DNA from: Sphaerosporella brunnea
Lineage: Eukaryota > Ascomycota > Pezizomycetes > Pezizales > Pyronemataceae
Length of the DNA stretch: 64,000 nucleotides
Direction: 5' to 3'
Assembly: GCA_008704415.1 (NCBI GenBank)
Contig: VXIS01000098.1
Span: 1-64,000 of the forward strand
Under the pieces are notes generated by a model that ran no database searches, had not been told where the DNA came from, and worked only from the letters and a program-made list of their open reading frames with translations. Numbering within the stretch: position 1 is the stretch's first letter; each line of letters opens with the position of its first letter. Shown here in pieces: positions 10,515 through 41,012 of the stretch. The position numbers were made by a program, and so were the translations under genes.

Positions 10515-10695
10515 CAGTTTCCTTCGATGTTTCGACAGCGTCCAAACATCAACGGAAACGAAGCACAAATCAAAAATTGCGACGCCGAAAGATCCTAAGA
10601 CCCTTCGTAGACACACCGTCTCTCTATGTGCAATGAGAGTGGCATCTCCAGAGCTTGGTAATTTGGGAGCTACCAAGTCGCATCAAGGTAAGTAT
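10515..10695 (-). ncRNA. U1 spliceosomal snRNA, copy 1 (class A)
   Basis: Read on the minus strand, the RNA opens with ATACTTACC, the sequence that pairs with the 5' splice site. It is followed by the SL I stem CTTGGTA/TACCAAG around a 10-nt loop, the SL II stem CTCTC/GAGAG around ATTGCACATA (the U1A-type loop), the SL III stem CGAAGGGTC/GATCTTTCG, the Sm site AATTTTTG (10571-10578), and SL IV at about 10558-10518, where TTTCC..TGATGTTT pairs with AAACATCGAAGGAAA. The 3' end is estimated from SL IV. The TATA-like box ATATAAAA lies about 45 bp upstream. It is divergent from copy 2. Confidence 0.88.
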
Positions 10696-10920
10696 GAGAA
10701 AAGGAAAAGGAGGGATGGAGGGGAGCCAGCCTTTTATATTCGTTTTTGGCTTGGCATTGTCGGCCAAAATTTCGAGGAATGTATCACTCATGCCTTTGTT
10801 GTCGAAATTTAAGAACAAGTAATTTGTGGTATAGTTCGAGTGACAGCCAGTGACCGCGCCAAGCCTGGGAGGACTATATAAACCCGCCTTTTCTCCCTCT
10901 TCCCTCCTTTTCCTTTCCTC
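10696..10920. promoter_or_regulatory. Bidirectional promoter between two head-to-head U1 genes
   Basis: A 225-bp spacer separates two outward-facing U1 5' ends. Towards copy 2 it has CTATATAAACCCGCC (TATA at 10875-10880, about 46 bp from the 5' end), preceded by GCGCCAAGCC. Towards copy 1, read on the minus strand, it has AAATTTTGGCCGACAATG, GCCAAGCC and ATATAAAAGG. Pyrimidine-rich tracts fill the space between each TATA box and its transcription start. Motifs of the AATTTTGGCC and GCCAAG type also precede the other U1 copies in this window. Confidence 0.7.
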
Positions 10921-11104
10921 ATACTTACCTTGATGCGACTTGGTAGCTCCCAAATTACCAAGCTCTGGAGATGCCACTCTCATTGCACATAGAGAGACGG
11001 TGTGTCTACGAAGGGTCTTAGGATCTTTCGGCGTCGCAATTTTTGATTTGTGCTTTGATGGCTTCCGTTGGTGTTTGGGCGCGGGCCGAGACACTGAAGG
11101 AAGT
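10921..11104 (+). ncRNA. U1 spliceosomal snRNA, copy 2 (class A)
   Basis: Near-identical to copy 1 from the 5' ATACTTACC through the Sm site AATTTTTG. SL I (CTTGGTA/TACCAAG), the SL II loop ATTGCACATA and SL III are all intact. SL IV at 11062-11103 has a different sequence (CTTCCGTTGGTGTTT against AGACACTGAAGGAAG) but still pairs, mostly by Watson-Crick and G-U pairs. This preserved pairing despite divergence argues for a functional RNA. The 3' end is placed just after SL IV. Confidence 0.88.
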
Positions 11105-11667
11105 TGCAATTGAGGTCGATGCATTTCGAGGTCTGGATTCTACTCGCTCTCAAGAGTTCGGGCACATCCTGATATCCCCGCTATTCCTCTGCTGCGGACA
11201 TACTTATGTGACTCTGGTTCGTCATTTAGTAGGTTTGAGCACACATCGCCGGCGGAATGTCGCTCACGGTCGCGAGCGTTATGCTTGCAGGCAACGAACT
11301 TGTTATGTGGATAGAGGATCCGAAGCGCGGCAGTCTGCGTATATACTTCTTACAGCAAAGCTTTCCCGCGCCAATCTCGCATGTAATCTCGTCCAGAACC
11401 AAGCCCAGAGCACACAAGTTACGTGTCTTTTTTCACATTAAATATTTCTGCACCACTCCCCAGGCAACAAAGGAAAGTGCGATGAGAACGAGTAGAACTG
11501 CTGATGGCAGAGGCTGCTGAGTGAGTTGTTATGACGCCCTCGATTGACAGAGAACAAAGAAGACATTAATTTAATCACACATACACGGAGGTCCAAGCTC
11601 TCCAGGAGGAAAAATCGGCCAAAATATTCATACACACAATCCATCCCTTTTACTACATGTGTCCCCA
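11105..11667. other. Intergenic between U1 copy 2 and NXT1
   Basis: About 560 bp with no supported gene. It should hold U1 3'-processing signals at its left end and the NXT1 3' UTR at its right end, but I could not identify either. Confidence 0.35.
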
Positions 11668-12195
11668 TCAAGCAGTAACAATGCGGAAGGTCTGCGCTGC
11701 TATCTTGAACTTGGACTGGGAGCCTGGCTCCGGCTTCAGCACGAAACTCTCGCTGAATCCCCGCTGCTCATTGCTCTCGCCATACTTGACAGCACCAGAC
11801 ACGATCAACATGACGCTACAGCTTCCCATTCCGTCCGAAACCAGCGGCTGCGCATCGAAAGACTGGGGGTCGTAGAAGGATTTCGGCATGGTGGCGAAGA
11901 AAGACGAGAAAGCGGCCCCCCCGCTGATAGCGTTGCCATTCCAGGCGATCGAGGCGTTCGAGTGGTAGAAAGCTTCTAGCGTCTGCCGCTCGTGGTTGAG
12001 CGCAGGGTAGTAGGTGTCGACAAAGTGGCGTGCCGCTGATGGGGGAAGGGGAGGTTATTAGATAGGTTTCGAGGCGTGGGAGTGGAGACCTGCTAACCGT
12101 CGGTCGCGATGTTAATGAGCTTGGGATCTTTGTGCGTGGTCTATTGTCTGTGAGTCAGCTTTCGTTTCGATTGGTAGAGGAGCAGAGGCTACCAT
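11668..12195 (-). CDS. NTF2-related mRNA export factor (NXT1/p15-like)
   Basis: An NTF2-fold protein. NXT1/p15 partners the TAP/Mex67 receptor to carry mRNA through nuclear pores. Three exons are predicted: 12195-12193, 12140-12098 and 12035-11668, giving 137 aa, the usual size for the family. The spliced N-terminus MTTHKDPKLINIATDAARHF leads into FVDTYYPALNHERQTLEAFY, a typical NTF2 helix. SIAWNGNAISGGAA and SCSVMLIVSGAVKY supply the beta-sheet core, and the end FSESFVLKPEP..FKIAAQTFRIV is the NTF2 strand pair. The first coding exon is only the ATG itself, with GTAGCC following directly; both introns carry plausible acceptor sites and the first has a GCTGAC branch site. NXT1 is favoured over NTF2 itself because of the tail and length, but this is an inference. 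Confidence 0.8.
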
Positions 12196-12959
12196 TTTTT
12201 GTAATTTTTTTTTGATGTGATTAGCTCTACTAGTAGATGAGTACTGGTTGTATTTGTCGCAGGGTAGCTATATGTACTATAGCGGTAGGTAGTGGTGGTG
12301 ATGGTGGTAGGGTTTTCTTGAGGACGATGAGGACGACGCGTTAAGTTGGATTTCGCGTTTAAGGCTGGCTGCATCTCAGATCCGAGCGTTAAGGTTTGGC
12401 TGGGCATGACTCGCGGAGCCGCAACAGGCAGCCCATGAACCCTTGGCGGCGCGTTAAGCGAATGACGGATGATGGATGACAGCAGCAAGAAAAAACAAAA
12501 AACAATAAAAGACGCTGCACGTGCTGGCGATGGGATGTTCTTCTGCCGATGGAATGTCGTGGGCGCGTCGCTTCTGGCTTGTCAGATGGGCCAGCAAGCA
12601 GCATGACGTGGGAGAGAAGCAAGCAGGCCAGCAAGTACGCAAGCAAGCAAGCAAGCAGGCAGGCAAGCAAGCATGCACATGCTTTTTTTTGCTGGAAATT
12701 AAACATGCTCCGAGCAGAGCTCTCGAAAGGGTAAAGCCATGTGGCCTCAACTCTGCTCTAGCACTCTATCCCCCCCATCGTGCCACCACCACTCCCAACC
12801 AAACCCAGCCAACCAACTCCTCCCGCAACTGACTCGTGCTCTCTCCTGTGCTCCCGAGAGCCTTGTCTGCTCGACTCAAGAAAAACATTTCGACGCTCGC
12901 CCCCTTCGCCGAACTTCTTTTCCTGCTCGACAACCAGCGTCACGTCTGGCTCATATACC
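12196..12959. other. Intergenic region with GCAA/GCAG tandem repeat
   Basis: The shared upstream region of two divergent genes, NXT1 (minus) and the acyltransferase (plus). At about 12605-12673 it carries an imperfect tetranucleotide repeat of AAGC/AGGC units. No other coding signal is seen. Confidence 0.5.
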
Positions 12960-14506
12960 ATGGTCGACAACAGTCGGAAGCTGGATCGCCCGCCATCCGG
13001 CGAGAAAATAGGCACCGCTACCAAACCTGCAGGTCTTCATCCTTCCGGCGCCGTTCGTTATGGAGGTTTCCGAAGGTTCATCCGGATGTGCTCGTGCGCC
13101 ATTTGGCTACTCTCGTGTGTCTTGGTGTAAGTAGGCCCGCTACGATGGCCCTTGCAGTCCTCGTGATGATGTTAATCGACAGTGCAGGATTCTTGCAACG
13201 CAGGTCTGTCGAGTATACATCCAATAACACGAGTATCCATTGACAGAATCAGTTTATCGGTGCGCCGCTATACTTTGTGAACCGGCCAATGTATTATGCC
13301 TGGATGTCTCGAACCAAGCAGCACTTTGGCGTCTTCGTGACAACTCTCACGCAGTGGTGGTCTCCAACTGTTGTCCGCGTTACTGGCGACAAATCTGTGC
13401 GACGCCAGCTTAAGCAGACCGCGGATGGATCCCTGGAATGTCAGTTCCCAGAGCGTATGATCTTGATCGCCAACCATCAGGTATTGCCCACTGTCCGAGA
13501 CGTTTTCGTGTAGTCCTTCAGTATGCTGAGTTCCCCCAGTTGTACTCCGACTGGCTCTATCTCTGGTGGATCGCATACACCGCGAAAATGCACGGCTTCA
13601 TCTACATTATCTTGAAGGAGTCGCTCAAGTGGCTTCCTCTCGTTGGAGTCGGCATGCAGTTTTATGGATTTATTTTCATGGCTAGAAAGTGGGAGCAGGA
13701 TAAATCAAGAATGGAGCACCGGCTCTCTAAGCTCGCCGCCGGGCGGGAAGATCCAATGTGGCTGTTGATTTTTCCGGAGGGAACGAACGCGAGCTCTAAC
13801 GGTCGCAACACGAGTGCTAAATTCGCCAAAAAACTGGGAGTCGAGGATCTTAAGCACCAGCTATTGCCTAGATCTACTGGGCTGCGGTTTTGTCTGGAGC
13901 AGATGAAGGAGACTGTCGATTGGGTTTATGACTGCACTGTTGCTTACGAGGGCGTTCGGTCGGTACCTGTTGTTCTAAACCCGCCTAGAACGTGGAGCTG
14001 ACTGAAACAGGCGCAATGAGTTTGGCCAGGATTATTTCACTCTATACTCGACTTATTTTGAAGGACGCCCGCCAAAGTCGGTCAACATGCACTGGCGCCG
14101 ATTTGCGGTCAAGGATATTCCTATCGAAGACCCCGCTGAATTCGAGCTGTGGCTTCGAGAGCGGTGGTATGAAAAGGACAACCTGCTGGAGTACTACATG
14201 GAGAATGGACGATTTCCGGAAGATGATGAACCCAAGGATAATGGCCACATTACCGAAAACATCGATACTCGCCAGCGCCATAAGGTTTGTGGAGAGGAGC
14301 GAACTGTCAGTACCGTCGGCGGGACAAATTCGGACGGGAAGTGGGAGGGTCCGGTTGAAACAGAGGTCAAATTGGCCCGTTGGTGGGACGTACTCGATAT
14401 TTTCACGGTGGTTTTGTGGGTACCCCCGTTCTATTTCTATGCCTTTATGTCTCTTTTCGTTGAGTGGTTTCTCAATATTGGCAACTTTTTGGGCTTTCTG
14501 GAATAA
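12960..14506 (+). CDS. LCLAT1-like lysophospholipid acyltransferase
   Basis: A membrane acyltransferase of the PlsC/LPLAT superfamily, closest in pattern to the LCLAT1/Cst26 group that acylates lysophospholipids. Five exons: 12960-13126, 13188-13203, 13253-13480, 13540-13958 and 14011-14506, giving 441 aa. Motif I reads NHQLYSDW (from residue 135), the variant NHx4D form of this group, and the acyl-acceptor motif FPEGT is at about 215-219. A transmembrane segment lies near residues 40-58 and a pair of hydrophobic segments near the C-terminus (WWDVLDIFTVVLWVPPFYF onward). Exon 2 is only 16 nt; it is needed to read VLVILATQFIGAPLYF in frame. The downstream frame YGQDYF-type signature and HWRRF segment fit the family. 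Substrate is not determined by sequence. Confidence 0.88.
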
Positions 14507-15012
14507 CCTCCGTGTGGAGTCTTGGGTAATTAACATGTTTCGAAGGAGGCATGAAGGCGGTACAGCGAGATAAACACCTGCTAACCAGTGTCGTTCCCTG
14601 GTAGTACCGTCTTCCTCATGGTAAGATTGGTTTTTCAGATGAACGGGATCTACGAGAAGGTAGCACTCGGAATATGGATGTAAATGGAGGGAACGGCGTG
14701 CTGGGATTTCATTTTGGGCGTTCAGTATGGTCCGGCGTTTTTAGAACTACTACTGTTTTCTCTGCTTTCAGAAAGGGACCATGAAGATATTTGGAAATTC
14801 TTCTGCATACTTGCATGGTGCTGATGCATAGCCAGTTCGAGTTGTGGATTGCATGGCTACAAATTCATTTTTTTCTCATCTGGTTCAGGTTTGAGCACCC
14901 GGTCGCCGAGAAGGGTGCTCGGCACGGAGGCCGACCCCGAGATCAAGGCTGAGCCATGTTGGCTTCCCGGGAAAGCCCTAAGCCCTGACCCCTAGTTTCC
15001 ACACATAATTTT
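14507..15012. other. Intergenic between the acyltransferase and U1 copy 3
   Basis: No coding frame supported. Contains a short GC-rich inverted repeat (GAGCACCC..GGGTGCTC, near 14893-14921). Confidence 0.35.
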
Positions 15013-15078
15013 GGCCGACGCCAAGTCAACATCAAGTATAAAACGCTGGCTCCTGGCCCCACTCCTCCTTTCTTCTTC
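15013..15078 (+). promoter_or_regulatory. U1 copy 3 promoter
   Basis: Reads TTGGCCGACGCCAAGTC, then AAGTATAAAACG (TATA at 15037-15043, about 42 bp from the RNA start), then a pyrimidine-rich tract up to the RNA. It closely matches the region before U1 copy 4 at 39482-39552. The upstream motif AATTTTGGCCGAC is also found before U1 copy 1. Confidence 0.65.
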
Positions 15079-15270
15079 ATACTTACCTTGATGCGACTCG
15101 GTGGCTCACCAAGCACCGAGATCCGGAGAAACAGCCTTCATTGCACAGCGAAGGCTTGGATTCTCTGCGAAAGGCCTTCGGGTCGTTCGGCGTCGTAATT
15201 TTTGATTTCTTGCTTTGTGGAAACACGCTTTCATTGACGATCTGGGTGTCACCGAGACGTTGAGGAAAGA
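15079..15270 (+). ncRNA. U1 spliceosomal snRNA, copy 3 (class B)
   Basis: Begins ATACTTACCTTG. SL I is CTCGGTG/CACCGAG around the 10-nt loop GCTCACCAAG, which matches the U1-70K loop consensus GAUCANGAAG at eight of ten positions. SL II is AGCCTTC/GAAGGCT around ATTGCACAGC. SL III is CGAAAGGCC-TTCG-GGTCGTTCG. The Sm site AATTTTTG is at about 15197-15204. SL IV at 15228-15269 pairs CTTTCATTGACG with CGTTGAGGAAAG. Compared with class A, both arms of SL I and SL II have changed together, which preserves pairing. It is convergent with the small gene ending at 15361. Confidence 0.9.
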
Positions 15271-15360
15271 AAGCATTTGATCTTCGGATGTGAAGTGCTT
15301 GTTTACTCGGACAGCCAATCGTCCAACCAAGTCCATCCGCCAGTCCCCTTCATGCCAATC

Positions 15361-15817
15361 TCATACAGTCCCATAGTTCTGCTGCCGTGCAGCTGCTGTC
15401 CTCTCTATTATACAAGCCTTTACCACTTGCACCAACTGTTCTTGCGTCTCCTGTTCATCAGGGGTTATGTCGTGCTGTACGCGTAACTCAGCGACCCTTC
15501 AAGGCAAGTTTTCCGAGTCAAAACATACAGCCATCAACCACCTCCGTAGCTCGGGCTCGCTCCACTCGCTTGGGTCACCGAATGGGTCATCAGGACTCGG
15601 GCTGCCGAGGAGAGGTTCGTCTCGCCAAATCGCCCACGCGGACACCCCGACGATTATCCCGGCGAAGGCAAAGAAGGCGTTCTGAGCTTGTTAACTAGGT
15701 ATCCAGCCGGTTTGCTGGACAGGACGGGAGGCATACTCTCGAGGATAGGAGACGGTCGAGTGCTGTGGGACTGCGCATTTGAATCTGATGCTGTTGCGGA
15801 ATTGGAATTGGAGCCAT
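15361..15817 (-). CDS. Small fungal protein with one membrane segment and SAP-like C-terminus
   Basis: A three-exon gene with no long open frame in any single exon: 15817-15737, 15681-15529 and 15474-15361, giving 115 aa. The N-terminus MAPIPIPQQHQIQMRSPTAL is followed by a hydrophobic segment NAFFAFAGIIVGVSAWAIW (about residues 28-46). Then comes an acidic linker DPFGDPSEWSEPELRRWL, which spliced runs on as MAHDITPDEQETQEQLVQVV. The ELRRWL..TQEQLVQVV part resembles the helix-turn-helix of SAP/HeH motifs. Each intron has a good donor (GTATGC or GTATGT) and a CAG acceptor, and all three exons are multiples of three. The function is unknown. The support is the coherence of the spliced frame. 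Confidence 0.6.
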
Positions 15818-16117
15818 CGTCGCGATTTATGTATGCGGGCTTCTTGTTTCTTGTTGGCGGAGCTTTCTTTTTGCTTTGTGCTCCGCCTTCAGGCGACCGA
15901 CGTGTGGCGCTGGGTGATTACAAAGGCAGGTGATGGCAATCAGATTGGATTAGTTAGATAAGGGCTTGGACCTAGCGCACACCACAGTCCCGCCAAATTT
16001 GTGCGATCCCCACACAATCCTCTCGGAAAGCTTGGCGATTCCGCTGAACGACGACCCGACGACAAACGAATTTACCGCGAAATCCCCGACGTCCGACACC
16101 CCACCCACACCGACAAA

Positions 16118-16618
16118 ATGCCCAAGCAGGTTCACGACATCAAGGAGTTCATCGAACTCTGCCGGCGCAAGGATGCTTCGAGTACGTTCAGTTCCACACC
16201 CGCGGCATAGCAGGAGGGGGAGAAAGAAGGCAGCTTTTTTTACGAGGAGAAAGCATGCGGAGAGGTCATAATGCTGGGGATTGAGGGCTGACTTGTGTAA
16301 TTTTTGGGTGGTTACAGCTGCTAGGATAAAGGTCCGTTTACATGCGTTGGATGCGAACCACGTTGTGGAACGGAATGCTGATAGAAATTTTTTGCGAGGA
16401 ATACAGAAGTCCACCAAGGGTGCGTCGCAGATCAAGTTCAAGGTCCGCTGCAGCCGACATCTCTATACCCTCGTCCTCAAGGACACCGACAAGGCCGAGA
16501 AGCTCAAGCAGTCTCTTCCTCCCGGTACATTTCCCCATTTGTACCTCTGCACGAATCAGCTCCTAACCGCCATGCAGGACTCACCATCACCGACGTTCCC
16601 TCTGGCAGCAAGAAATAA
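16118..16618 (+). CDS. rpl38: 60S ribosomal protein eL38
   Basis: A small cytosolic large-subunit ribosomal protein. Four exons: 16118-16181, 16318-16331, 16407-16524 and 16578-16618, giving 78 aa, the normal size. The product reads [20 protein letters not shown], then TARIK, then [20 protein letters not shown], then [20 protein letters not shown] and [12 protein letters not shown]. All match eL38. The second exon is only 14 nt and encodes ARIK plus part of the preceding codon. The last intron has a CTAAC branch site. Short early exons are common in fungal ribosomal protein genes. Confidence 0.95.
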
Positions 16619-17843
16619 ACGCGCTCTGACGATGCGGTGTGGGGTTAATGTGTACTATGGGCATAGGGCACAAAAAAATTAAAGCAGTTTTGCGTTCGGA
16701 TAATGGCGCTACAATGGCAATGCTTTCTGGTTCAAATTGCGAGCTCCAACTGCGCCTTTTGATGCTGAAATGTGGAGTGATGCACAAATTACCATCGGAT
16801 ACGAACAGAACTGTTGGAACCCATCGTGACGTCTCCACGGGTTTCCAAAACTCGGCCAGTGACGCAACGCGGCTCGAGCAACGTCAATCCTCCTGCCCGG
16901 AGGCGGACAACGTCACTACCGCCCGGCGGTGAACATAACCCACTGTTTGCCAGTTGCGGCGCCGTCCGTAATGCTTCATCTTCCGAATGCCCCATCTCCC
17001 AATGCCTCGCCAACAAAACAAAGAACTGGCTGTGTTTCGCCGTTGGCGCGATTTATACTCGTTCCCGCGACCGTATGTTTTGAACCCGGTATCGTCGATG
17101 CTGCCTTTTCGAACCTGTCTTCTGAACCCGCTCTCCACCTGCGCTGTATCATTCCTATCATGATGTCAGTCTGCAGATCTCTCGGCGGTACGCGATACTT
17201 AACGAACCTACTCCACCTTGTATGCAACCATACGGTACGGCTGTGTTTCGATACTGGTGCATCACTAGAAATATGCGAGTGATTCAACATGACCGAAACA
17301 TGGCCAGCGCCCATTGGAGAGAGTTTTAGGAATTGAGATGCTGTGCTCGGTCTGGTGTCACTACTAATCAGTCGGACGTACTGGCACCAGTTAATGATTT
17401 CCCTTCCGTTGGAATTACCTATCTATGGCGCGTTACTGCCCGAGACCCCTGAAGGAGGAATACGTGCGCTGTTTCGCGGCATCATACAGAATTCATTCAA
17501 CCTGCCCTTCTGGTGCAAACGTAAAATTTCTACACAACGGCCGGTATAATGGAGATGCTACAGAAGTGAGTGATTGCGATTCCTTTGATTTGAGAGGCAA
17601 TGACAATGAATCATTCCTCCCGCCCAAAAACGGCTAGTAGTGCCGCCTTCGCGGCTGCGGTGCAACCACGACTGGTATCTAAGAGGACACATCTTCGCAG
17701 GCGCGCTAGGTGGATCCACGTCCACATATCTAAGTAAGCTCCGGTTCGTTTGTAGAGAAAACACCAACACTTCTTCAACGAACTCAACCCCCACTACCCC
17801 TCGTTCCCTTCGTCCATTTCAGCGCCTGTGCACAGCAGCCGCC
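16619..17843. other. Intergenic between eL38 and STE24
   Basis: About 1.2 kb with no conserved frame on either strand. The last 200 bp before the STE24 ATG are pyrimidine-rich and end in GCCGCCATGG, a favourable start context. Confidence 0.4.
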
Positions 17844-22880: not shown

Positions 22881-23165
22881 GGCGGGAGGAGGACTATTGG
22901 CACGGCGGCGGTTTCGGGGGTCGGCAAAGCTTCACTCACAATCAACGAAACGGCGACTTGCAGACAATAAAGTTCCGCAGTTTGGGTCAAAAGTCTCTCA
23001 CGTGATTGGCCAAGACAAGCATTGGGGTGATCTCCACATGCGGGTTAGCGGGCTGGAATGGGGTTTCGAAGCTCTCCCACCTCTCACCACTGTTGCTGTG
23101 AGAACCCCCTCACATCACCTTGCGCTCTCACATTTTTACGGGAATATATTCACAGCAGCCAGCAA

Positions 23166-24308
23166 ATGGACGTTACGGCGCTGCGATGGAGTATTTGGGA
23201 AGGATCGATCCCCTGCAAAATAGAGCTGGATTCCTCCGAAAGCTGTGTTCGAGCCGATGTGCTGCCGTATTTCGTGAGCAGTTTCCCACAACGGAAACCA
23301 CCAACTCTAACCAAAACAACAAGACAAAACTACCACGACTGTCATACATTCCGCTGTATATCAGTCAGATATTTCAGTTTTTCGAGCCTTGGCTGGACAC
23401 AAAGGTTGCCAGTGTTGATAATGCATGGCTGGAGTTTGAAGGCGTCCCATTGAAATGGTATCTATCACTCGCACCACCGATCAAGGTATCTCCAGACATG
23501 ACTGATGGCTGTTGTGCCAGGCACTGGCCTATCGGGGTTCTCTATGACCTCTTCATCGGCCGAGACCCCTCGGACACTAGGGAGGAAGATAACGAGGAGT
23601 ATCGCCTGCCATGGAGCTTGATATTGCACTTTGAAAACTTCCCTACCAAGCATCTGATGCGCGCGGGGTCTTCGCAGACATTTTACGATGCCTGGAACAA
23701 TTGTCTCAAGGAAGTGAGCCTCCCCACTATCCCCCATCCAGGGACGCTTTCTGACCTACCGATAGTCTTCAAGCGTCAGGAACGGCAGCGCGAAGACAGT
23801 CATGAGCTTGTCCAAAGCGGAGTCAACCAAGCTCTGGGAAGGGCTCGTGGAGCGTGGGTTGTTTCCATTCAACTGTCGGGTAAAAAACTAACCGGCATAA
23901 TGACCAGACGACTTTGATAAGTTCTGGGGCGTCAACGACAAGCTGATATCGGACACAAACGGACCTATGCGTAACTTCCCAATAAGAGTCTATATCCCGT
24001 CTACGCCGCGGGTGGTCCAATTGCCGGTGTCCCAATTTTTGGATTCCAGTCAGTCGAGTCATCAGATCTGTATCGGAATACAAATACTGACGGAATTAAA
24101 AAAAAAAAAAACAGAGGAACCCCAAACCATTGGTACCGCCCTACACAGCCTGATACCTGAGCTGTTCAAATCAAAAAGAGCCGCTCTAGTGGCACGGCCA
24201 GTGGTCCATGGCGTCGTGGTCGCAATGAATACGCCGTTGGCGGAACTAGGACAGTTGGCAGTCTATCCGGATGGTTTCCTGCACGTAACCTTGGCGATGA
24301 TGTCGTAA
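23166..24308 (+). CDS. atg5: Autophagy protein Atg5
   Basis: Atg5 is conjugated to Atg12 and, with Atg16, acts as the E3-like factor for Atg8 lipidation on autophagosome membranes. Six exons are predicted: 23166-23273, 23324-23457, 23521-23713, 23766-23853, 23908-24026 and 24117-24308, giving 277 aa. The N-terminus WSIWEGSIPCKIELDSSES, PRLSYIPLYISQIFQFFEPW and FEGVPLKWHWPIGVLYDLF form the first ubiquitin-like domain. The conserved lysine of NCLKE (about residue 144) corresponds to the Atg12 acceptor. The end TIGTALHSLIPELF..PVVHGVVVAMNTPLAEL is the second ubiquitin-like domain. Introns 2 and 5 are multiples of three without stop codons, so retention would not break the frame. Intron 5 (24027-24116) is the least certain and contains a long A run. 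Confidence 0.92.
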
Positions 24309-32727: not shown

Positions 32728-32901
32728 AGCTGCGCAATTGTCGGGTGGTAGATGGAAATTGTGGATTGCAACGCAACACTGGGGTCACACCGACGGATGC
32801 TGTTCATTGCATGCAGTGCAGAACTCTTTTGTTACCAATACACAGTTTCTAATTGCCCTCGGCCTTCTCCCGCGCTGGCCAATTTAACCCAGCTGTGGTA
32901 T

Positions 32902-34120
32902 CTATGCAAACAACTTGGCCAGGTCGAACTCATTGTGCGCTCCTTTAACAACTGCGCCCTTCTCTGTAACAATCGCATCAATCAAGTCCTTTGGCGTTAC
33001 GTCAAAGCTTGGATTGTAGACACCGACACCCCTGGTGATACCAGGTGCAACCGCCTGCACTCGATCCATGTCCACCCACAGCACACCGTCCTTCTCGAAG
33101 TCCACCCTCGGTCCAGCAACTTTGAGAACTTCGTTGGCTGGCCGCTGCTCGATGACGATTTCGGCGCCCGACTTTGTGTTGAGGTCGATACTGGTAGTTG
33201 GGGCAGCGACTACAAACTTCACTCCGTGGTACTTTGCAACGATGGCGAGTTGGTATGTGCCGATCTTGTTAGCAGTGTCGCCATTCAAAGCCACCCGATC
33301 TGCACCGACAACGATCGCTGAGATCTTGTGCATGCTGAGCAAAGACGCCGCCATGCTGTCGGTAATAAGTGTGGACATTCCTTGCGGGAGATCTGTTGCA
33401 AGCTCGTAGGCGGTCAAACGGGATCCCTGGTTGTACGGGCGTGTCTCGGTGCAATATGCATGAATCAGTGACGAGGTCGCGTGCAAAGAACGGATTATTC
33501 CGAGCGCCGTCCCATATCCAGCCGTTGCGAGGGAACTTGAACCTGTCAGCGGTGGAAGGCGCAACGAAGGGGGTTGCTGGGAGGAGGAGCACAAGAAGTC
33601 TAAGTTCACGAGTTACTCACCCAGTGTTACAGTGGGTCAAAACAGCGACCTGTTTCTGATCACCACAGTTCTCCAGTATCCATCTCGCACCGTGGTCTCC
33701 AATATTTTTGTTATCCGCGACGTCGTCAACCAACATCTGCTCCGCGGCAAGAATGTATTGTTCCACCACCTCATTGCCGCTCTCGGAGATGCTGGCCACG
33801 AGACGCTTCAGCTTGGTGGCGGCATCAGACAGGTTCACCGCCGTGGGTCGCGATTTGACGAGGTTGTCGAGTCTGCCCGAGATCAAGGTCCTCGCCTCTT
33901 CCGTGCTCAATTGTCTCGCATTCGAATTCTCCAGCTCGACTGCCAGTGCTAGCGCTGCTACGATCGCGATTGCCGGTGCACCACGAACTACCATGCGCTG
34001 AATAGCAACGAAAGCATCTTTGCAGGTCTTTATAGAAACGTATTCGGACTGATGGGGGAGCAGGAGCTGGTCCAGAATGTCGAGCGTACCTCGCGCGTAT
34101 CGAATTGCTTGCAAGGCCAT
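32902..34120 (-). CDS. mri1: Methylthioribose-1-phosphate isomerase
   Basis: Catalyses isomerisation of methylthioribose-1-phosphate to methylthioribulose-1-phosphate in the methionine salvage cycle; related to eIF2B alpha subunits. Two exons, 34120-33621 and 33535-32902, give 377 aa, the expected length. Marks are [19 protein letters not shown], the active-site cysteine in [20 protein letters not shown] (C164), [16 protein letters not shown], and the catalytic aspartate in [20 protein letters not shown]. The tail [20 protein letters not shown] is also conserved. The intron ends in AAG with a GCTGAC branch site nearby. Start is the ATG of [13 protein letters not shown]. Confidence 0.95.
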
Positions 34121-35780
34121 GTTTGATTTTGACGAGCGTGTTCGGAGACTTGACGCGGGGTTAATGTTTTGTTTTTTGGAGCGGGGCGAGTGGGGGGTAA
34201 ACTTTCTAACAGCCGTGCCAAGGTTACCAAACTGCGGAACCAATGAAATGAGCGCACAGTAACTGCAACCTTCATTGATCATGGCAATGCACTCGCTCGC
34301 TTTGACAGCAGGTTCCTATTCTCAAGCTAGATCTCGAGATCGTTTCTTCGAACATCATCGCCCTCTGCTTGTCTGCTGGAATTTGAAGATAATTAACGGC
34401 GATGGCTATCAGAATCGATGCGTGAGAGAGTAAAGGTGCCGTCTTTCCTTGTTTTGAAGGAAGCGGTTATCATAGCGTCATCCATGCAAGCAGCAGAGGG
34501 AAATGCCGCCACTTCCAAAGGATACATAACTCTTTGGGGAGAGTGGGGGGCACCTGTCCAGCCGGTCGAGGTTACAATGCTTGACATAGGTAGTCCTACA
34601 TAAGTACATAGTGGCTGACGGTACCGCAAGAGATGCAATGAAAATCTTTCCCTATATGCGTATATGCGGGATTCTCAATGGCGTTAAGACCACTTGCGTG
34701 ACGTGTGCCATCCATCCAGCCAGTCGCGGAGAAATGAAAAGCCTTTAAGAATTGCATACAATTCCATGCATGCCTACTTAGTACATATATGTAGCTATAG
34801 GAGGTAGGTAGGTGTTTTTCCTTGTTGTAGAGATATCTGATTATGGTGGTCACGATACGTAATTAAAATGAGACTGTATGTAGTTCATGGAACTGTATAC
34901 GTGTGGTTACCCCCGAAGAGGCGGTCCGGCGAAATGCGTGATGATCGAAGTTTGTTATTTTTCCCCTCCTTTCCTTCCAATGCCGATCACAATGTTGCCA
35001 GCGGCGGTTCGCGGCGGCGCTGCCCGAAGCGTTTTGCAAATTTGGGGGGTGTTGAGCCTGCTCATTTGATACATCGGAAATTGGGAAAGATATGCACTGT
35101 GATGTAGGTTGACGAATGATACTTCATGCTTCTTCATAACTCGAACACACGACCACGGCCTTGATCAGCGCATTCCTCCTGCTAAGCTATATTACCGGCC
35201 AGAAGAGCGGGTTTGAGAAGATTGAGAAGGTATGCTGCTATTTCTCATGCTGGAATGGCAATTCAGAATGCGAGAATCCCCCTTCCTCCAATATCCCGGT
35301 GTACATACCCTGCAGGCCCTCGGGCCCAGCTGAATAGGTACATATCAATTGATTCTGAGTGATCGACAGGACTACAGTAACTCAGCCGGTGACGCCTGTA
35401 CTCTCTACTCAAAGATTTTGTGCGGGGTCACAGGACATCACTGTCAGTAATCAAGACCACAAGGCGGTAAAGCTCTGCATACGTCTACTTGCCTCTCGAT
35501 ATCCTCAAAGTCGGACCTCATTAGGAAATGCACTCGAATCGGGGGCACAACAAGGTTGTTCCATTGGCCAGGCGCTCCTGTTAGCTTCCAACTCGCTTTT
35601 TGCTTTCAACTCGAGAAAAGCGAGTTGGGAGAGAAAGCGCGCAGGGATCATTAGCAAGATGGGCAATGATAATCCGGAAAGAATCGTGGTGTGGTGGGCA
35701 TTTTGGTAAGGCGTAGTGTCGAGAGCGCGAACGTTCCGACTCGGGATGCAAAAAAAAAACACATCCGTCACTCGGTACTA
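34121..35780. other. Intergenic, start of the repeat-rich island
   Basis: No supported coding frame. It contains short GTAGGTAG repeats near 34800, one tRNA-like sequence (35130-35200), and a small inverted repeat of CAACTCGCTTTT type near 35588-35625. It ends at the DNA transposon remnant. Confidence 0.4.
35130..35200 (-). other. tRNA-like sequence (pseudo-tRNA or SINE head)
   Basis: On the minus strand there is a perfect A-box match, TAGCTTAGCAGG (35189-35178), and, about 30 bases on, a B-box-like GTGTTCGAGTT (35148-35138). The anticodon and acceptor stems do not pair convincingly, so a functional tRNA is unlikely. It may be a decayed tRNA or the promoter part of a SINE. Confidence 0.35.
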
Positions 35781-36617
35781 TGGTGCCGGCAGCCTTAAAC
35801 CGTGACCAAGCAGGGGGGGGTTTTGAAACACCTGTTACCCGGCTGCAATCGAGCGAGTGATTGTCAATGAGCACCCGCCTCGCCATATAGGCACGCCTCA
35901 ATACTTAAAAAATCCACTGGCAACACTACTCCTCGCTGAAAAACCTGAAGTCGCGTTCTAGAGATGGCGAGACCTCACACGCAAACCCCGTGCACAATTA
36001 CCTTATGAAGGAGAAGAAGGCACGCTGAGGGCTGGGGCGACGGTCGATGAAGAACCTGTAGCAATAACAGAGACAACATTCCAAAGGAGTTCAATGTCGT
36101 AAGGGAGCTGGCAATCTGGACCCAGCCTGTTTGAAACAATGCGATTGCTGCGCCAGAGGTGTGATTGCTCAAGAGCAGGACTTCAAACAAAAGACCCAGC
36201 CTGAAGAGGAGATCCTAAAGCGTGGCCACATTTGCATCTTCTTACCCAGATTTTACCCTCAAAATAACCCCATTGAGTACCACTGGGGGCAACAAAGGTG
36301 TTCCCAAGGAAGAAATGTGGGTATACCCTGAGTGTGCCTCGCGAAACAGCAGTTCCTCAGGGTTTGAAGGCTGTGCCTCCTGACCAAATACTACGCTACT
36401 TTGAAAAGCTCGAGCGTATTCTGGAAGCCTACCCTGCTGGCGATGTTTATGGAACCTAGCAATTTACCGACAAGGTGTTATCGCCTTAAATACCAGCATT
36501 CAGGGCCGTTAATTGTGACGCGAGGCATCAGAGAATATCACTCGCTCGATTGCAGCCGGGTAACCGGTGTTTCAAAACCCCCCCCTGCTTGGTCACGGTT
36601 TAAGGCTGCCGGCACCA
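35781..36617. mobile_element. Degenerate TA-flanked DNA transposon with DDE transposase relics
   Basis: Terminal inverted repeats of about 90 bp begin TGGTGCCGGCAGCCTTAAAC and are mirrored at the right end. TA is present at both borders (35779-35780, 36618-36619). Internally, on the plus strand, fragments of a DDE-superfamily transposase can be read in shifting frames. CIFLPRFYPQNNPIEYHWGQ resembles the PxxxPxLNPIE region before the last catalytic acid. Further on, PQGLKAVPPDQILRYFEKLE, then RILEAYPAGD, resembles the C-terminal helices of such transposases. Frameshifts and stops make it inactive, and its 837 bp are too short for a complete element, so it is an internally deleted, decayed copy. 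Confidence 0.75.
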
Positions 36618-36984
36618 TACCATTCTACAAAATGCATCAACTGGGTCGCTCAAAGTTACAAAGCGAGTTGGCCTTTCTCATTGGCCACGACTGCACCTTG
36701 CCAATGGGGATAAATTGATACTGGACAAATCCTGGAGGAACCACGCGATTGAGGAATTGCAGTATTGTATGAAACTCCCACGTTAACTCAGTAAAATTGG
36801 GAATTGTTGAAAACAACATTGGAGAATTGATTCTGTATACCGGTTGATGGGAGCGCGACATTTCTTTAATCGTGGTATATATTCGGTGGTGACGTGCTGA
36901 TGTCGTAACTCGGGATTTCCCAGAATACTGAATGCAGCGTTCTTTGCAACGGGTATTGTACTTCTGGAGAAACCCCAGAGGAAT

Positions 36985-37350
36985 ACCGTAGAATCCCGGT
37001 AATAACGAAATTTCACAGACCCCGAAGTATACTGACACGTGCCGTTCAGCGGGCAGTGAAGCTGGGTGGGAAGTGTTTCGACGCGAGCTGGAGTGCAAAG
37101 AGGCGACGTGAAAAGTCAACGCTGGATACAAGGTGGAGACGGGGAAGAGCAAGCGCTCAGGCTGTCGCCGCGGTCTCCATCTCCCCGCTCTGTTTAAGCT
37201 TTTACTGACCACTACCGGTCGAGCACTGTCCAAGCACGTCGCTTCCAACCGCCTCACACAGCTTCACTGCCCGCTGAACGGTACGTGTCAGTATACTTCG
37301 GGGTCTGTGAAATTTCGTTATTACTGGGATAATGCGGTGCTACACATCTA
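36985..37350. mobile_element. Inverted-repeat element (~365 bp)
   Basis: Arms of about 90 bp pair across the element. The left arm contains GGTAATAACGAAATTTCACA, then GACCCCGAAGTATACTGACA, and the right arm contains their reverse complements. CCGTTCAGCGGGCAGTGAAGC lies inside both arms. The outermost bases (CCGTAGAATCCC against CCGCATTATCCC) are more diverged, so the exact borders and target duplication are uncertain. It is GC-rich in the centre and has no coding frame. Confidence 0.7.
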
Positions 37351-37404
37351 GTGGTGTTTTAAGCGAGAAAAAAATACCAAAAGCAAGCCGAATTGTAAAT
37401 TTAA

Positions 37405-37485
37405 AACTTGTAACCGACTGGAATTTGAATCCATGAAGTTGCCGTAAACCAAGGGTTCTTACCAACTATGCTATCAAAAAATTGT
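37405..37485 (-). other. tRNA-like sequence (SINE head or pseudo-tRNA)
   Basis: The minus strand shows an A box TAGCATAGTTGG (37473-37462) and a B box GGATTCAAATTCC (37432-37420), both matching the internal RNA polymerase III promoter consensus, at tRNA-like spacing. The anticodon stem is only weakly paired. It may be a tRNA-derived SINE, a decayed tRNA, or a diverged tRNA gene. Confidence 0.45.
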
Positions 37486-37704
37486 TAAAACCAAAAGCAA
37501 GTTGTATACTTTGAGCACAGCTTAAATTCAAGTCTCGGGGTTACCACCAGAACAATACCGTGTTCTTATCAACACAGATCTTTTCAAAAAGCAGAATTTT
37601 TGGAAACCTGCCTTTTCACACACACAGCAAAGGCTCAATTTTTTATTTTTTTTAACGAGCGGTATTTATACTGCATTTTAAGCAAGCGGTAAAAAAGGTA
37701 AATA

Positions 37705-38549
37705 CCGTATTTTTTTGGAGCGAAAGGCTGGCTTTTCGGTAGGGCGCACCATAAAATAAAAATTACACTACAACCCTAACCCAGGCCGCCTCTGGACCCG
37801 CTCCTCCCACAGCGCCCATCAGCCTTCAAATCAAATAGCTCGTGCTCGTCCCTCCTTTGCGCAATTTCATTGGGATCAGCCTTTTCCTTCAAAATCCCAA
37901 GCAGTGCAAGCCAATTATCTCGTCCAGAACTCCTTTTTTTCCCTGGGCCAGCAGCTCCCGGTTCCAAATTGCAATTCAATCCACCACTGCCGATTTCAAC
38001 AGGGAGATTATTCAGATCTCTTATTTGAGCAGATCATCCTCTGAGCCGTTGGGATCCAAAGAGATACCTGTTTTCTTGGACAGTAACCGGCTCCCTCCCG
38101 GGGAAGCCACTCTTCGAGCCAGCATCGATTCGTTCTAGAAAATCCGCGAAATCCTTCCCTTCCTCCCTCTCGCCGCCCCCCTTACTCCCAGCCTCGCTCT
38201 CTCTCCCTCCCCCTCCACCTCACTCTTCCCTTCCTCTTCAAGCTCCTTCGCTGTTGCCTTCGCACTCGCCTTCTCCCTCCCCAAATCACCGTGCTAGTGC
38301 ACGATCTTCTTGCTCCAAGGAATTGTCGAGGTGCCTGGCAGCTGCTGTCATGATGATCAGCGGTGTATCCTGCCTAAGGAGAACTTGATGGTACCGGCTT
38401 TTGTTAAAAATGTCGAGGCGGTTACGGTGATGTGAGTGGTGCTGGGGTGAATGACTCACTGTGTATCACTCAAACATAACCCCCTAACCCTCCGCTGCCA
38501 AAATTTCATTCCGCCCAAGGCGCAGCGCCTTTCGCTTCAAAAAATACGG
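37705..38549. mobile_element. TA-flanked inverted-repeat transposon remnant (845 bp)
   Basis: The left end CCGTATTTTTTTGGAGCGAA and right end (reverse complement CCGTATTTTTTGAAGCGAAA) match, and both are bordered by TA (37703-37704, 38550-38551). The repeat continues in degenerate form for about 80 bp up to a CCCTAACC motif on each side. Protein-like fragments occur inside, for example KKTGISLDPNGSEDDLLK and NCNLEPGAAGPGKKRSSGRD on the minus strand, but none was recognised and no long frame survives. Confidence 0.7.
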
Positions 38550-38909
38550 TACCTATTCTCACTGTTCTGATAAACCTGCAGTGTTTACCGAACTCCAGGG
38601 TTTGGAGAAATCTTTATAGCGGTATCAAAAGTTATCATTTATATCCCGCAGTACAACTGGATTTTTGGACCTGCAGTATATTTCCGGTATAGATTTTCCC
38701 CGGTTGTTCAGTACTGTATGTTATATCGGGGTGTGGAGGATTCGGGTAATTTTTTTTTTTTGTGGCCCGTGCGGATCAAGACTGGAAGGTACCGGTGTCA
38801 ACATAAGCGGGGTGTGACTCGGTGATTCTGGAAGCGGAACTGCAACATTTGGCCATGGCTAGAAGGCGGAAGCATGTGGAAAAAAGGTAGATGTGTGGTA
38901 TGGTCAATA

Positions 38910-39242
38910 GGGAGGTTTTGCGACTTCCTTAAATCTACCTTTCTTGCTATTTTAGCGCGTGGCCTGTAGCAAGGAAAGTGTTTGGGTGACCACTCGCAAA
39001 AAAGAGGTTCTGCGACTTCCTTACCTTTTTTGGGGTCAACAAAGTTAAGGAAGTGTAAACAAAGGACCCTAAGAAAGGTTCTACCGTAAGAAGCCTTCTT
39101 AGGGCATCAGCTAATGTCTCTGCCAAGATATTCTTCAATGCCACTGTGCGCTATACCAAAATCTGCATAGTGGGTTGATAATCCCTGCCATTGCTCTGGA
39201 AACAGCAAGGAAGGTAGATTTAAGGAAGTCGCAAAACCTCCC
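38910..39242. mobile_element. TA-flanked MITE with perfect ~40-bp terminal inverted repeats
   Basis: A 333-bp element. The left end begins GGGAGGTTTTGCGACTTCCT and continues TAAATCTACCTT; the right end is the reverse complement without visible mismatches over about 35 bp. TA occurs at both borders (38908-38909, 39243-39244). A similar motif, GAGGTTCTGCGACTTCCTTA, is also found inside at about 39006, so the element may contain a nested or partially duplicated end. A minus-strand frame of 65 codons is not recognisable. Confidence 0.85.
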
Positions 39243-39481
39243 TAATTTGAGTTGATGCATACTTCTTATCTATGACGGGCCCGGAGAGCATGGCCTCATA
39301 CTATACTCAACGCTTGGGGTATCGTCCAATAAGCCTAAGGTACAAAAGCATGATTATGGCGTCTCTCTCCTCGTGGAGCCGTCCTGAAAAAGTTTCGGTC
39401 CCATCAGCGACTCCCTAGCCAGAATGTGTCAGGCCCAGCGTTAACCTTAATCTCGAGTGATATCCTATGTCACTGCATCAA

Positions 39482-39552
39482 TTTTGGCCGACGCCAAGCC
39501 AACATCAAGTATAAAAGGCTTGCTCCTCGCCCCATTCCTCCTTTTCTTCTTC
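39482..39552 (+). promoter_or_regulatory. U1 copy 4 promoter
   Basis: Contains TTTTGGCCGACGCCAAGCC, then AAGTATAAAAGG (TATA at 39510-39516, about 40 bp upstream of the RNA) and a pyrimidine tract. It is nearly identical to the promoter of copy 3. Confidence 0.65.
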
Positions 39553-39742
39553 ATAATTACCTTGATGCGACTCGGTGGCTCACCAAGCACCGAGATCCGG
39601 AGAAACAGCCTTCATTGCACAGCGAAGGCTTGGGTTCTCTGCGAAAGGCCTTCGGGTCGTTCGGCGTCGCAATTTTTGATTTTCTTCTACTCGCTTGGTT
39701 TTCGTTGATGCCCTGGGCAATGCCGAGGCGTTGATGAAAACT
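39553..39742 (+). ncRNA. U1 snRNA, copy 4 (class B) with variant 5' end
   Basis: Same class B body as copy 3: SL I CTCGGTG/CACCGAG with loop GCTCACCAAG, SL II loop ATTGCACAGC, SL III with a TTCG loop, and the Sm site AATTTTTG. The 5' end reads ATAATTACC instead of ATACTTACC: U1 position 4, which pairs with G at +5 of introns, is A instead of C. SL IV (39698-39741) has its own sequence, GTTTTCGTTGATGCC against GGCGTTGATGAAAAC, yet pairs completely if G-U pairs are allowed. So it is either a functional variant U1 or a recently mutated copy. Confidence 0.85.
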
Positions 39743-39790
39743 GTGATGGAGAGGCCAGCTGATGAAGCGCCGTCGCATACTTGCGCGGCC

Positions 39791-40068
39791 GGAAAATCCA
39801 CGGATCATTTGACTTCAGGGTTAGGTTTTCCTGAGCACCCTGAACGTCAGCCAGTAGGGAATGGCTGTGAAGATTCGGTACTAAGGCAATGTGGCTAAGT
39901 GACTTTGCCATGAGGCTGAGTGACTTCTCCACAGAGCGCAGTGACTTTGCCACATTGCCTTAGTACCGAAGCTCTATGGTATGACATTGATCCTAACAGG
40001 ACTGACGATGCAGGGGAACAGGTTGCTTCGGAAAACCTAACCCTGAAGCCACATGATCTGTGGATTTC
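39791..40068. repeat. Nested palindrome between two U1 genes, with inner TA-flanked hairpin
   Basis: The outer arms GGAAAATCCACGGATCAT..TTCAGGGTTAGGTTTTCC (39791-39834) and their reverse complement (40024-40068) enclose an inner hairpin at 39881-39963. The inner hairpin ends are CTAAGGCAATGTGGC and its complement, bordered by TA. Just to the right (about 40068-40110) is an inverted fragment of the class A U1 promoter (GTCGTTTGAGGCTTGGCG). This looks like debris of an inverted duplication into which a small MITE inserted. Confidence 0.6.
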
Positions 40069-40204
40069 TGGCCTCGGGAGTCGTTTGAGGCTTGGCGTAA
40101 CTCACTGGATATACTTGTCGACCTTTCGGAAAATCACATTCATTTCTTTTGACAAGCAGATTAGGAGTGATCGAAAGTTTGGAATTTTGGCTGTTCTGCC
40201 AAGC

Positions 40205-40317
40205 CAGAAACAACTATATCTGTGATCGATTTTCGAGTGACATTCAGTGAGTCGCGCCAAGCCTCAAACGACTATATAAACCCGCCCTTCTCCCTCTTCC
40301 CTCCTTTTCCTTTCCTC
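40205..40317 (+). promoter_or_regulatory. U1 copy 5 promoter
   Basis: Contains GTGATCGATTTTCGAGTGAC, then GAGTCGCGCCAAGCC, then ACTATATAAACCCGCC (about 45 bp upstream of the RNA) and a CT-rich tract. The mirror-image promoter of copy 6 (41013-41115) is practically identical, so the two copies share a recent duplication. Confidence 0.65.
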
Positions 40318-40496
40318 ATACTTACCTTGATGCGACTTGGTAGCTCCCAAATTACCAAGCTCTGGAGATGCCACTCTCATTGCACATAGAGAGCCGGTGT
40401 GTCTACGAAGGGTCTTAGGATCTTTCGGCGTCGCAATTTTTGATTTGTTCTTTACTTTCATTGATGTTTGGACGATGTCGAGATCTCAACGGAAGC
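40318..40496 (+). ncRNA. U1 spliceosomal snRNA, copy 5 (class A)
   Basis: Intact ATACTTACC 5' end, SL I CTTGGTA/TACCAAG, SL II loop ATTGCACATA, SL III, and Sm site AATTTTTG. SL II differs from copies 1 and 2 by one base just after its right arm (GAGAGCCGG for GAGAGACGG). SL IV (40455-40495, CTTTCATTGATG.. against ..TCAACGGAAG) is the least well paired of the six but is still recognisable. Confidence 0.85.
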
Positions 40497-40837
40497 ACAC
40501 GAGTTGACGAGGAGTTGTCTCCGGACGCTTGCTCCAGCAAACCTGGATAAACGGCAGGAAGCATACCCAAGGTAGCCATTTTCTACGCCGCGAACACTCT
40601 TTCAAGTAGCGCTGCCCCGTTAAAGATGCGGCACCAATGGAGCGGCAGATCTCAAAGCTCGCGATTCAAGTCCTTTGTCGCAGGTCTTTCGCAGGGGGAG
40701 GGCTGAAGTTTCAGCCGATCCTCCACCCCTCCCTCCCTTGACATATGTGGAATTTCTGGAGTACGTGATTGCTACTGCGGCCGCCGAGGATGAGCTTACG
40801 TCCCCAGTCCCACCGATCCCCATAAGCCTGCTGATTT

Positions 40838-41012
40838 CACTTCCTTCAATGTTTTGACTCTGTCTAAACACCAATGAAAAAGAAAATCAAAAATTGCGAC
40901 GCCGAAAGATCCTAAGACCCTTCGTAGACACACCGGCTCTCTATGTGCAATGAGAGTGGCATCTCCAGAGCTTGGTAATTTGGGAGCTACCAAGTCGCAT
41001 CAAGGTAAGTAT
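40838..41012 (-). ncRNA. U1 spliceosomal snRNA, copy 6 (class A)
   Basis: Minus-strand mirror of copy 5, tail to tail with it, separated by about 340 bp. The 5' end is ATACTTACC at 41012, and SL I, the SL II loop ATTGCACATA, SL III and the Sm site are intact. SL IV (40880-40840) is TTTTCATTGGTGTTT against AAACATTGAAGGAAG, paired with several G-U wobbles and one mismatch. The 5' half and promoter match copy 5 nearly base for base, while the 3' hairpin does not. Confidence 0.87.

Follow-up and report, generated by a model that had tools for sequence, protein, structure and literature searches.

Six U1 snRNA genes dispersed over one 64-kb window of the Sphaerosporella brunnea genome

Introduction

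The 5' splice sites of introns are chosen by U1. Sphaerosporella brunnea, the source of the DNA analyzed here, is a cup fungus (Pezizales) and a tree-root associate. The spliceosomal snRNAs of S. cerevisiae are single copies each and Drosophila U1 has five gene copies in three variants, with variation that is called small (both from passages in PMC10645366). For fungal U3 snoRNA, sections of PMC5832005 give three or fewer copies in almost all genomes surveyed, and name U3 and U6 as the sole small structured RNAs known so far to be often interrupted by introns. Here, we describe six U1 loci in a 64,000-nucleotide stretch of S. brunnea DNA (the window; contig VXIS01000098.1, positions 1 to 64,000). 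It is reasonable to regard six U1 genes as unusual for fungi, as the first-pass annotation of the window did, and we consider it very probable that, as a whole, the following account holds: the six loci are genuine U1 genes, each probably a separate RNA polymerase II unit, in a family that has spread and undergone gene conversion.

Results

The Rfam U1 model (RF00003) spans positions 1-166 of 166 in all six copies (49-59 bits, E 5.2e-12 to 2.8e-9), with the SL IV portion skipped in the alignment of the copy at 39553. The copies are as follows, with broken pairs counted against a 48-pair consensus:

10515..10695, minus strand: U1 snRNA gene, class A (Rfam U1 51.3 bits; 0 of 48 pairs broken)
10921..11104, plus strand: U1 snRNA gene, class A (Rfam U1 49.2 bits; 0 of 48 pairs broken; SL IV z -4.0)
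15079..15270, plus strand: U1 snRNA gene, class B (Rfam U1 58.6 bits, E 5.2e-12; 1 of 48 pairs broken)
39553..39742, plus strand: U1 snRNA gene, class B, C4->A (Rfam U1 51.2 bits; 1 of 48 pairs broken; SL IV z -4.1)
40318..40496, plus strand: U1 snRNA gene, class A (Rfam U1 52.7 bits; 1 of 48 pairs broken)
40838..41012, minus strand: U1 snRNA gene, class A (Rfam U1 54.7 bits; 0 of 48 pairs broken)

Neither these six nor any of 16 copies genome-wide reach the gathering score of 69.5 bits, which is the curator's cut-off and not a biological trait; because all six lie below it, default Rfam annotation is silent in the window. The coordinates given by the first-pass annotation are correct within a few bases, as a model built from the family matches 10518-10695(-), 10921-11103(+), 15079-15269(+), 39553-39740(+), 40318-40495(+) and 40840-41012(-). 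The same model, which is circular for the known six, finds no seventh copy in the window at E values up to 10. A separate match to MIR844 at 39870-39974 (42.8 of 70 bits) is a short inverted repeat within a longer one; we reject it as a microRNA and read it as a foldback element.

The U1 identity proposed for the six loci is borne out by the agreement of the Rfam model, compensatory changes, snRNA-like upstream elements and intact Sm sites. Both the AUUGCAC loop of SL II and the Sm site AAUUUUUGA, as first reported, are present in 6/6 copies. The splice-site-pairing 5' end ascribed to all six is exact (AUACUUACCU) in five and departs at 39553, which carries AUAAUUACCU. The cloverleaf of H helix and SL I, II and III has 0-1 of 48 pairs broken per window copy, and the SL IV hairpin, also among the initial claims, folds in every one, weakly at 40318 (z -1.3; 19 of 200 shuffles as stable) and at 41012 (z -1.6; 16 of 200).

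The published assembly, built from single-spore mycelium with a Pacific Biosciences long-read pipeline at 907.91x depth, comprises 51,598,955 bp in 872 contigs (according to parts of PMC6908789). Our genome-wide searches covered 640 contigs and 50,565,648 bp, about 1 Mb and 232 contigs fewer than published. RF00003 matched the six window loci (E <=2.8e-9, below the gathering score) among at least 16 U1 loci in these contigs, 8 of them on the window's contig; the count of 16 is a lower bound because 41 of 975 candidates were scored. The AUUGCAC loop is present at 15 of the 16 loci, and a 16-base 5'-end pattern occurs at 13 exact and two one-mismatch places, all at U1 loci, with no excess of further matches up to 3 mismatches (270, against 278 for a reversed-pattern control). 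Three copies look degenerate: two of them, E_C47b and E_C8, each have 7 broken pairs and lack TATA at the shared position, and the third, C_C72, has an altered 5' end. SL IV was folded for 15 of the 16 copies, all but C8; the family hairpin is missing from C72 and C47b, though C72 has only one broken consensus pair. We place the number of intact U1 loci at about 12-13 of at least 16.

Conservation across the family lies in structure as well as in sequence. In a 16-row alignment that keeps the degenerate copies, with every row retained, 97.0% of the 763 base-pair cells hold an intact pair, a fraction equalled by 0/500 shuffles, and slid structures give only 34-47% paired. Both sides have changed at 19 of the 48 pairs (equalled by 0/500 shuffles), and covariation is 0.381, against 0.233 +/- 0.011 in shuffles, none of 500 of which reach that value, on a 48-pair structure that was itself derived from this alignment. 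Further pair types are not above shuffles across the 16 copies (181 of 500 reach the observed value). These data bear on the possibility that the loci are pseudogenes derived from U1, or a repeat family of the SINE type, as 16 dispersed copies, three of them degenerate-looking, might suggest. We consider this very unlikely and reject a SINE or retropseudogene origin, since helices are preserved by compensatory change, upstream elements have been copied along with the genes, inspection by eye shows no A-tails beyond the 3' ends, and the 16-base 5' end is exact in 13 of 16 copies without an excess of stray matches. The dozens of copies with broken helices that such a family would hold did not turn up among the 41 candidates scored: there are 16 loci, and in 14 of them no more than 3 of the 48 pairs are broken.

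Upstream of each window copy lie the following elements, with positions relative to the putative start site:

10732..10770, minus strand: promoter of 10695-; ATTTTGGCCGAC (-75), GCCAAGCC (-60), TATAAAA (-43)
10858..10882, plus strand: promoter of 10921+; GCCAAGCC (-63), TATATAAA (-46)
15008..15043, plus strand: promoter of 15079+; ATTTTGGCCGAC (-71), GCCAAGTC (-59), TATAAAA (-42)
39481..39516, plus strand: promoter of 39553+; ATTTTGGCCGAC (-72), GCCAAGCC (-60), TATAAAA (-43)
40256..40280, plus strand: promoter of 40318+; GCCAAGCC (-62), TATATAAA (-45)
41050..41074, minus strand: promoter of 41012-; GCCAAGCC (-62), TATATAAA (-45)

In all six, TATA stands 42-46 nt before the putative start and a GCCAAGCC-type element 59-63 nt before it. 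Genome-wide, 13 of 16 U1 loci have TATA between -41 and -46, and 12 of 16 have GCCAAGCC or GCCAAGTC between -59 and -63, patterns that were picked after inspection of the sequences; an inverted GGCCAAAAT element at -71 to -75 marks the four class B copies and 10695-. TATA is found at -39 to -42 in three of four U4 genes and at -42 to -44 in all 15 U2 copies with exon 1, three of these being degenerate. The U1 upstream elements sit at distances like those in other S. brunnea snRNA genes, with RNA polymerase II as the predicted polymerase.

Within the window, class A (10695-, 10921+, 40318+ and 41012-) and class B (15079+ and 39553+) share 74-75% core identity. The cores of 10695- and 10921+ are identical over alignment columns 1-141, and 10695- is a mosaic, with a body 99% like that of 10921 (class A) and a promoter 75% like that of 39553 (class B). 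The genes at 40318+ and 41012- are convergent inverted partners, with a 233-nt arm 99% complementary to 40877-41109. Identical aligned cores recur in three opposite-strand U1 pairs, an arrangement that can signal assembly trouble. That the assembly is at fault, or that both haplotypes were counted, is nonetheless extremely improbable here, and we reject it: the assembly is a long-read one from single-spore mycelium, flanks in the three pairs are 19-43% alike (the background identity, from 30 random 54-mers, is only an approximate standard for flanks of 80 bases), and SL IV is distinct in two pairs (51% and 63% alike) and close in the third (96%). The SL IV hairpin is kept even at 51% likeness between copies with nearly identical cores, and SL IV varies enough across the six window copies to distinguish the loci. 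Apparently, the family is DNA-duplicated and functional, with signs of gene conversion, and is not SINE-like.

The loop of SL I, GAUCANGAAG in the letters of the Rfam consensus, is the U1-70K site and is typical of U1 without defining it. All six window copies differ there from the consensus GAUCAaGAAG, reading GCUCCCAAAU in class A and GCUCACCAAG in class B, and loop I is clearly off consensus at 15 of the 16 loci, with the nearest at C390 (GAUCAUGAAU, 9/10). At its 5' end, copy 39553 has C4->A, AAUUACC instead of ACUUACC, and by base-pairing logic would favor U over G at intron +5. Apparent introns, whose removal would shorten the product by 59-172 nt, interrupt 15 of 19 U2 matches in the S. 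brunnea contigs, and 15/15 have G at +5; a regular-expression scan of the window for introns by their +5 base did not enrich known 5' splice sites and is uninformative. Class A, class B and the 39553 copy might form functionally different U1 snRNPs, differing in splice-site or 70K binding as for human vU1 and Drosophila U1. A core difference of about 25% between classes with structure kept, the +5 preference, class-specific loops I and class-dependent promoters (GGCCAAAAT inverted in B copies and 10695-) favor such specialization, for which PMC10645366, PMC5159530 and PMC13172311 offer precedents. We nevertheless judge it unlikely, as C4->A occurs in one copy only, where drift could explain it, and every U2 intron carries +5 G.

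U1-70K itself was not found in the 640 contigs searched with a profile, protein queries and signature strings; as these contigs fall about 1 Mb and 232 contigs short of the published assembly, absence from the genome is not implied. Four U1-70K protein queries matched 14, 2, 17 and 4 places, respectively, at 23-43 bits, and eight of these look, by eye, like CstF64-, CBP20-, RBMX2-, eIF3g- and SART3-type and other RRM proteins. Six U1-70K signature strings, sought in any frame with no known U1-70K as control, occur at none of the loci scanned, which take in every matched place other than C1:277699. The U1-70K N-terminal domain (PF12220) has 0 candidates in the genome and likewise 0 in controls, which by itself is uninformative. 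A zf-U1 search found three places above cut-off in S. brunnea, and also hit one of 14 controls (E. coli); the best match, on C248 (59.7 bits), is U1C-like by eye, and a putative U1C-type zinc-finger domain is encoded. Pfam searches covered 10 of 70 listed open frames.

Discussion

Building on the sequence, structure, covariation, upstream spacing and mosaicism observed in the family, we propose that each U1 copy probably forms a separate RNA polymerase II snRNA unit, in which a GCCAAGCC-type element, TATA about 43 nt before the start and a pyrimidine-rich stretch would precede an RNA of about 180 nt. Once transcribed and capped, as we predict, the RNA would pair through its 5' end with 5' splice sites, bind U1A at the AUUGCAC loop and Sm proteins at AAUUUUUGA, terminate in SL IV, and so assemble into an snRNP used in splicing. 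The family may have dispersed as short promoter-plus-gene units, with gene conversion, by a presumed mechanism, homogenizing within classes while divergence with compensatory changes proceeds between them.

A bolder combination, in which several distinct U1 snRNPs have altered 70K loops, 39553 is retuned to +5 U and pre-U2 splicing depends on U1, seems to us decidedly improbable. On that reading, S. brunnea U1-70K would be lost, strongly changed or merely outside the searched contigs, and a need for these U1s in splicing the pre-U2 intron would tie U2 supply to U1 function. Introns in U2 would make a spliceosomal RNA dependent on a spliceosome built from U2. Under the account of genuine, independently transcribed U1 genes that we prefer, an ascomycete with about 12 intact copies, in several classes with structural compensation, offers a natural experiment on the variable parts of U1, and also informs how snRNA families are homogenized. 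Altered loops I, and a U1-70K that has gone undetected, pose a question, open to direct testing, about one of the core contacts in splicing.

The S. brunnea copies resemble RF00003 in 5' end, H helix, stem-loops, AUUGCAC loop II and Sm site, and differ from it in scoring 49-59 bits, in a loop I off GAUCAaGAAG and in gaps in SL III. Like Drosophila U1, as far as the cited passages describe it, they are several dispersed genes with sequence variants; unlike it, their classes are about 25% apart in the core with compensatory changes, across 16 loci. Human vU1 genes are likewise reported as U1 paralogues alongside canonical U1 (PMC5159530, PMC13172311), whereas those of S. brunnea are described here at the level of sequence. 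Fungal U3 offers a parallel in its multi-copy small RNA genes, TATA-box promoter and introns in a structured RNA (sections of PMC5832005). The U2 of Rhodotorula hasegawae is reported to have an mRNA-type intron (Takahashi 1993, as cited in PMC2586383), and an intron is apparent in 15 of 19 S. brunnea U2 matches; this is a different fungus, and the likeness rests on the presence of an intron in U2, not on its position. Set beside these systems, the S. brunnea U1 set is a real and exceptionally rich example of a well-known gene type, with predicted expression.

U1 loci in the window and across the genome

The first-pass annotation placed six U1 snRNA genes in the window, and the Rfam U1 model (RF00003), with matches ranked by E-value, covers all six from first to last position at 49.2-58.6 bits, below Rfam's own cut-offs, at which the window gives no match at all; a search of the window at E-values up to 10 gives no seventh copy. 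The annotated coordinates, strands and architecture stand with one exception: in the copy at 39553, A replaces C at position 4 of the 5' end that pairs with splice sites.

U1 copies in the window (start, strand, RF00003 score)
15079, plus, 58.6 bits
41012, minus, 54.7 bits
40318, plus, 52.7 bits
10695, minus, 51.3 bits
39553, plus, 51.2 bits
10921, plus, 49.2 bits

The source, Sphaerosporella brunnea (Ascomycota, Pezizales, Pyronemataceae), is described in its genome report as ectomycorrhizal, with a 51.6-Mb genome in 872 contigs obtained from mycelium of one spore (PMC6908789). We searched 640 contigs (50,565,648 bases), including C639 (138,019 bases), whose bases 1-64000 are the window, and found at least 16 U1 loci, a lower bound because 41 of 975 candidates were scored. 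Beyond the window lie two on C639 (109618, minus; 131938, plus), two on C47 and one each on contigs C390, C618, C129, C519, C72 and C8. The pattern ACTTACCTTGATGCGA occurs at 13 exact and two one-mismatch places in the genome, every one among the 16 loci; with up to three mismatches it shows no excess, at 270 places against 278 for a reversed-pattern control. Rfam matches to other spliceosomal RNAs number 19 for U2, seven for U6 (two above cut-off), two for U5 and four for U4. The core tree splits classes B and D (our own labels) from A, C and E with support 98/95.

Core classes and broken pairs of the 48 in the U1 structure
Class A: four window copies, C618, C129, C519; 0, 1 and 1 broken outside the window
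Class B: two window copies, both other C639 copies; 2 and 2 broken outside the window
Class C: C47a, 1; C72, 1
Class D: C390, 3
Class E: C47b, 7; C8, 7
All six window copies: 0, 0, 1, 0, 1 and 1

Conservation of U1 structure

RNAalifold, applied to a 16-row U1 alignment, gave 48 pairs, with 97.0% of 763 cells paired, both-side changes in 19 pairs (71 cells) and a covariation score of 0.381. None of 500 shuffles attains any of these four values and sliding the structure by 1-3 columns leaves 34-47% paired, a contrast that is expected in part because the structure was derived from the same alignment; further pair types do not exceed the shuffles (181/500). The SL I helix reads UUGGUA/UACCAA in class A and UCGGUG/CACCGA in class B. 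An SL IV hairpin with a 3-bp tip is present in all six window copies (z -1.3 to -4.3), with 19 and 16 of 200 shuffles equally stable at 40318 and 41012, and its sequence diverges even between copies otherwise alike.

Upstream elements

Thirteen of the 16 U1 copies have TATA at -41 to -46, and 12 have either of GCCAAGCC and GCCAAGTC at -59 to -63, with all six window copies belonging to both sets; these and the following counts are descriptive, as the patterns were picked after viewing the sequences. By these patterns C47b, C8 and C390 have neither element at the shared places (by eye, C390 has TAAATA near the TATA place), and C72 is without GCCAAGCC/GCCAAGTC. Thirteen of 15 U2 genes carry a GGCCAAAAT-type element at -76 to -80, as do two of four U4 genes at -77/-79, and the element's reverse complement occurs at -71 to -75 in five of 16 U1 copies; three of four U4 genes have TATA at -39 to -42. 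Both U6 genes above cut-off (L028, L029) have, upstream, the 3' portion of U6 in reverse complement (GTAAGCTCTTCTTTGTGA).

Proposed spread of the U1 family

Aligned cores are identical within each of three opposite-strand pairs (10695-/10921+, 40318+/41012- and 109618-/131938+), while identity drops to 19-43% beyond promoter and gene. Between 40318+ and 41012- it is 100% over -80 to -1, 98% over 1-136 and 51% over 137-190, and 37% and 19% in the outer flanks (background mean 32%, maximum 44%). The body of 10695- is class A, 99% identical to 10921+; its upstream stretch is nearest class B, at 75% to 39553+ and 47% to 10921+. On the simplest reading, the family may have spread as short units accompanied by gene conversion. 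Weaker likeness extends farther in some other class A pairs, with flanks at 42-60% in C129/C519 and 40318/C129 and an upstream flank at 51% in 10921/40318, as expected for older duplications.

U1 RNA and its protein partners

Base-pairing rules allow the 5' end AUACUUACCUUG to pair with splice sites of the form CAAG/GUAAGUAU. Loop II is the U1A site, and an intact Sm site is present. Loop I, the U1-70K site, reads GCUCCCAAAU in window copies of class A and GCUCACCAAG in those of class B; closest to the Rfam consensus (GAUCAaGAAG) is C390, with GAUCAUGAAU.

Contig C248 encodes a U1C-type domain (59.7 bits), alongside which several RRM proteins were found in the genome. U1-70K was not detected in the searched contigs by four protein queries, two of them database proteins, nor by a signature scan of the loci they matched, nor by a PF12220 search of the genome, itself uninformative; possible causes are a missing contig, a large number of introns and real divergence. 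Database searches find a U1-70K-type protein in Ascobolus and Choiromyces, also Pezizales; that no S. brunnea entry was noticed among the best 120 such matches says little, as the searches were length-limited and some names incomplete.

U2 genes with an apparent intron

Fifteen of the 19 U2 matches (L009-L019, L024-L027) carry an apparent spliceosomal intron of 59-172 nt, 11 nt into the RNA, in the arrangement AGCTCTCTTTG / GTACGT...GCTAAC...CAG / CCTTTTGG. Exon 1 (11 nt, AGCTCTCTTTG) is exact in 11 and has one change in four; the intron begins GTACGT (13), GTATGT (1) or GTAGGT (1), has a branch-like motif starting 16-17 nt before its end (GCTAAC 10, GCTAAT 3, GCTGAC 1, CCAAC 1) and ends CAG, followed by CCTTTTGGCTTAGA (14) or CCATTTGGCTTAGA (1). 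TATA lies 42-44 nt upstream of exon 1 in all 15 (three degenerate, TACAAA or TATGAA); without an intron it would sit much farther off, at a distance varying with intron length. These sequence features suggest that the intron is spliced; a U2 gene intron is reportedly on record in Rhodotorula hasegawae.

Short repeats lie inside the introns of L011 and L014. In L024-L027, additional sequence is inserted behind TCTGTTCTTTTTCCC; it ends in GCTGACTTTCAACAG (GCTAAC in L026) and is followed by ATCTGAAA. L020-L023, without the U2 5' end, share a distinct 5' region ending CTGTATACA right before (A/T)TCAAGTGTAG; they are either truncated copies or another arrangement.

Other features of the window

A MITE-like foldback (39794-40067; 49-nt arms, 88% complementary) lies between two U1 genes. 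Nested in it is another inverted repeat, of 45 nt (82%), which gave rise to a MIR844 match below threshold. Further inverted repeats lie at 35779-36619 (108-nt arms, 89%) and 36985-37338 (84-nt arms, 93%). A Pfam scan matched five of the 10 open frames it took in.

Open frames with Pfam matches
7903-8529, Thoc5
23102-23917, ATG5 UblA
46396-47304, beta-lactamase fold
56019-57557, peptidase M16C
61275-62144, HCNGP

Relation to known U1 families

Top matches in the literature on fungal U1/U2 genes, U2 introns and Pezizales snRNAs, taken by title and abstract start and covering few subscription papers, gave no description of a U1 family of the S. brunnea type. In animals, U1 families of several copies with sequence variants are already on record (PMC10645366).
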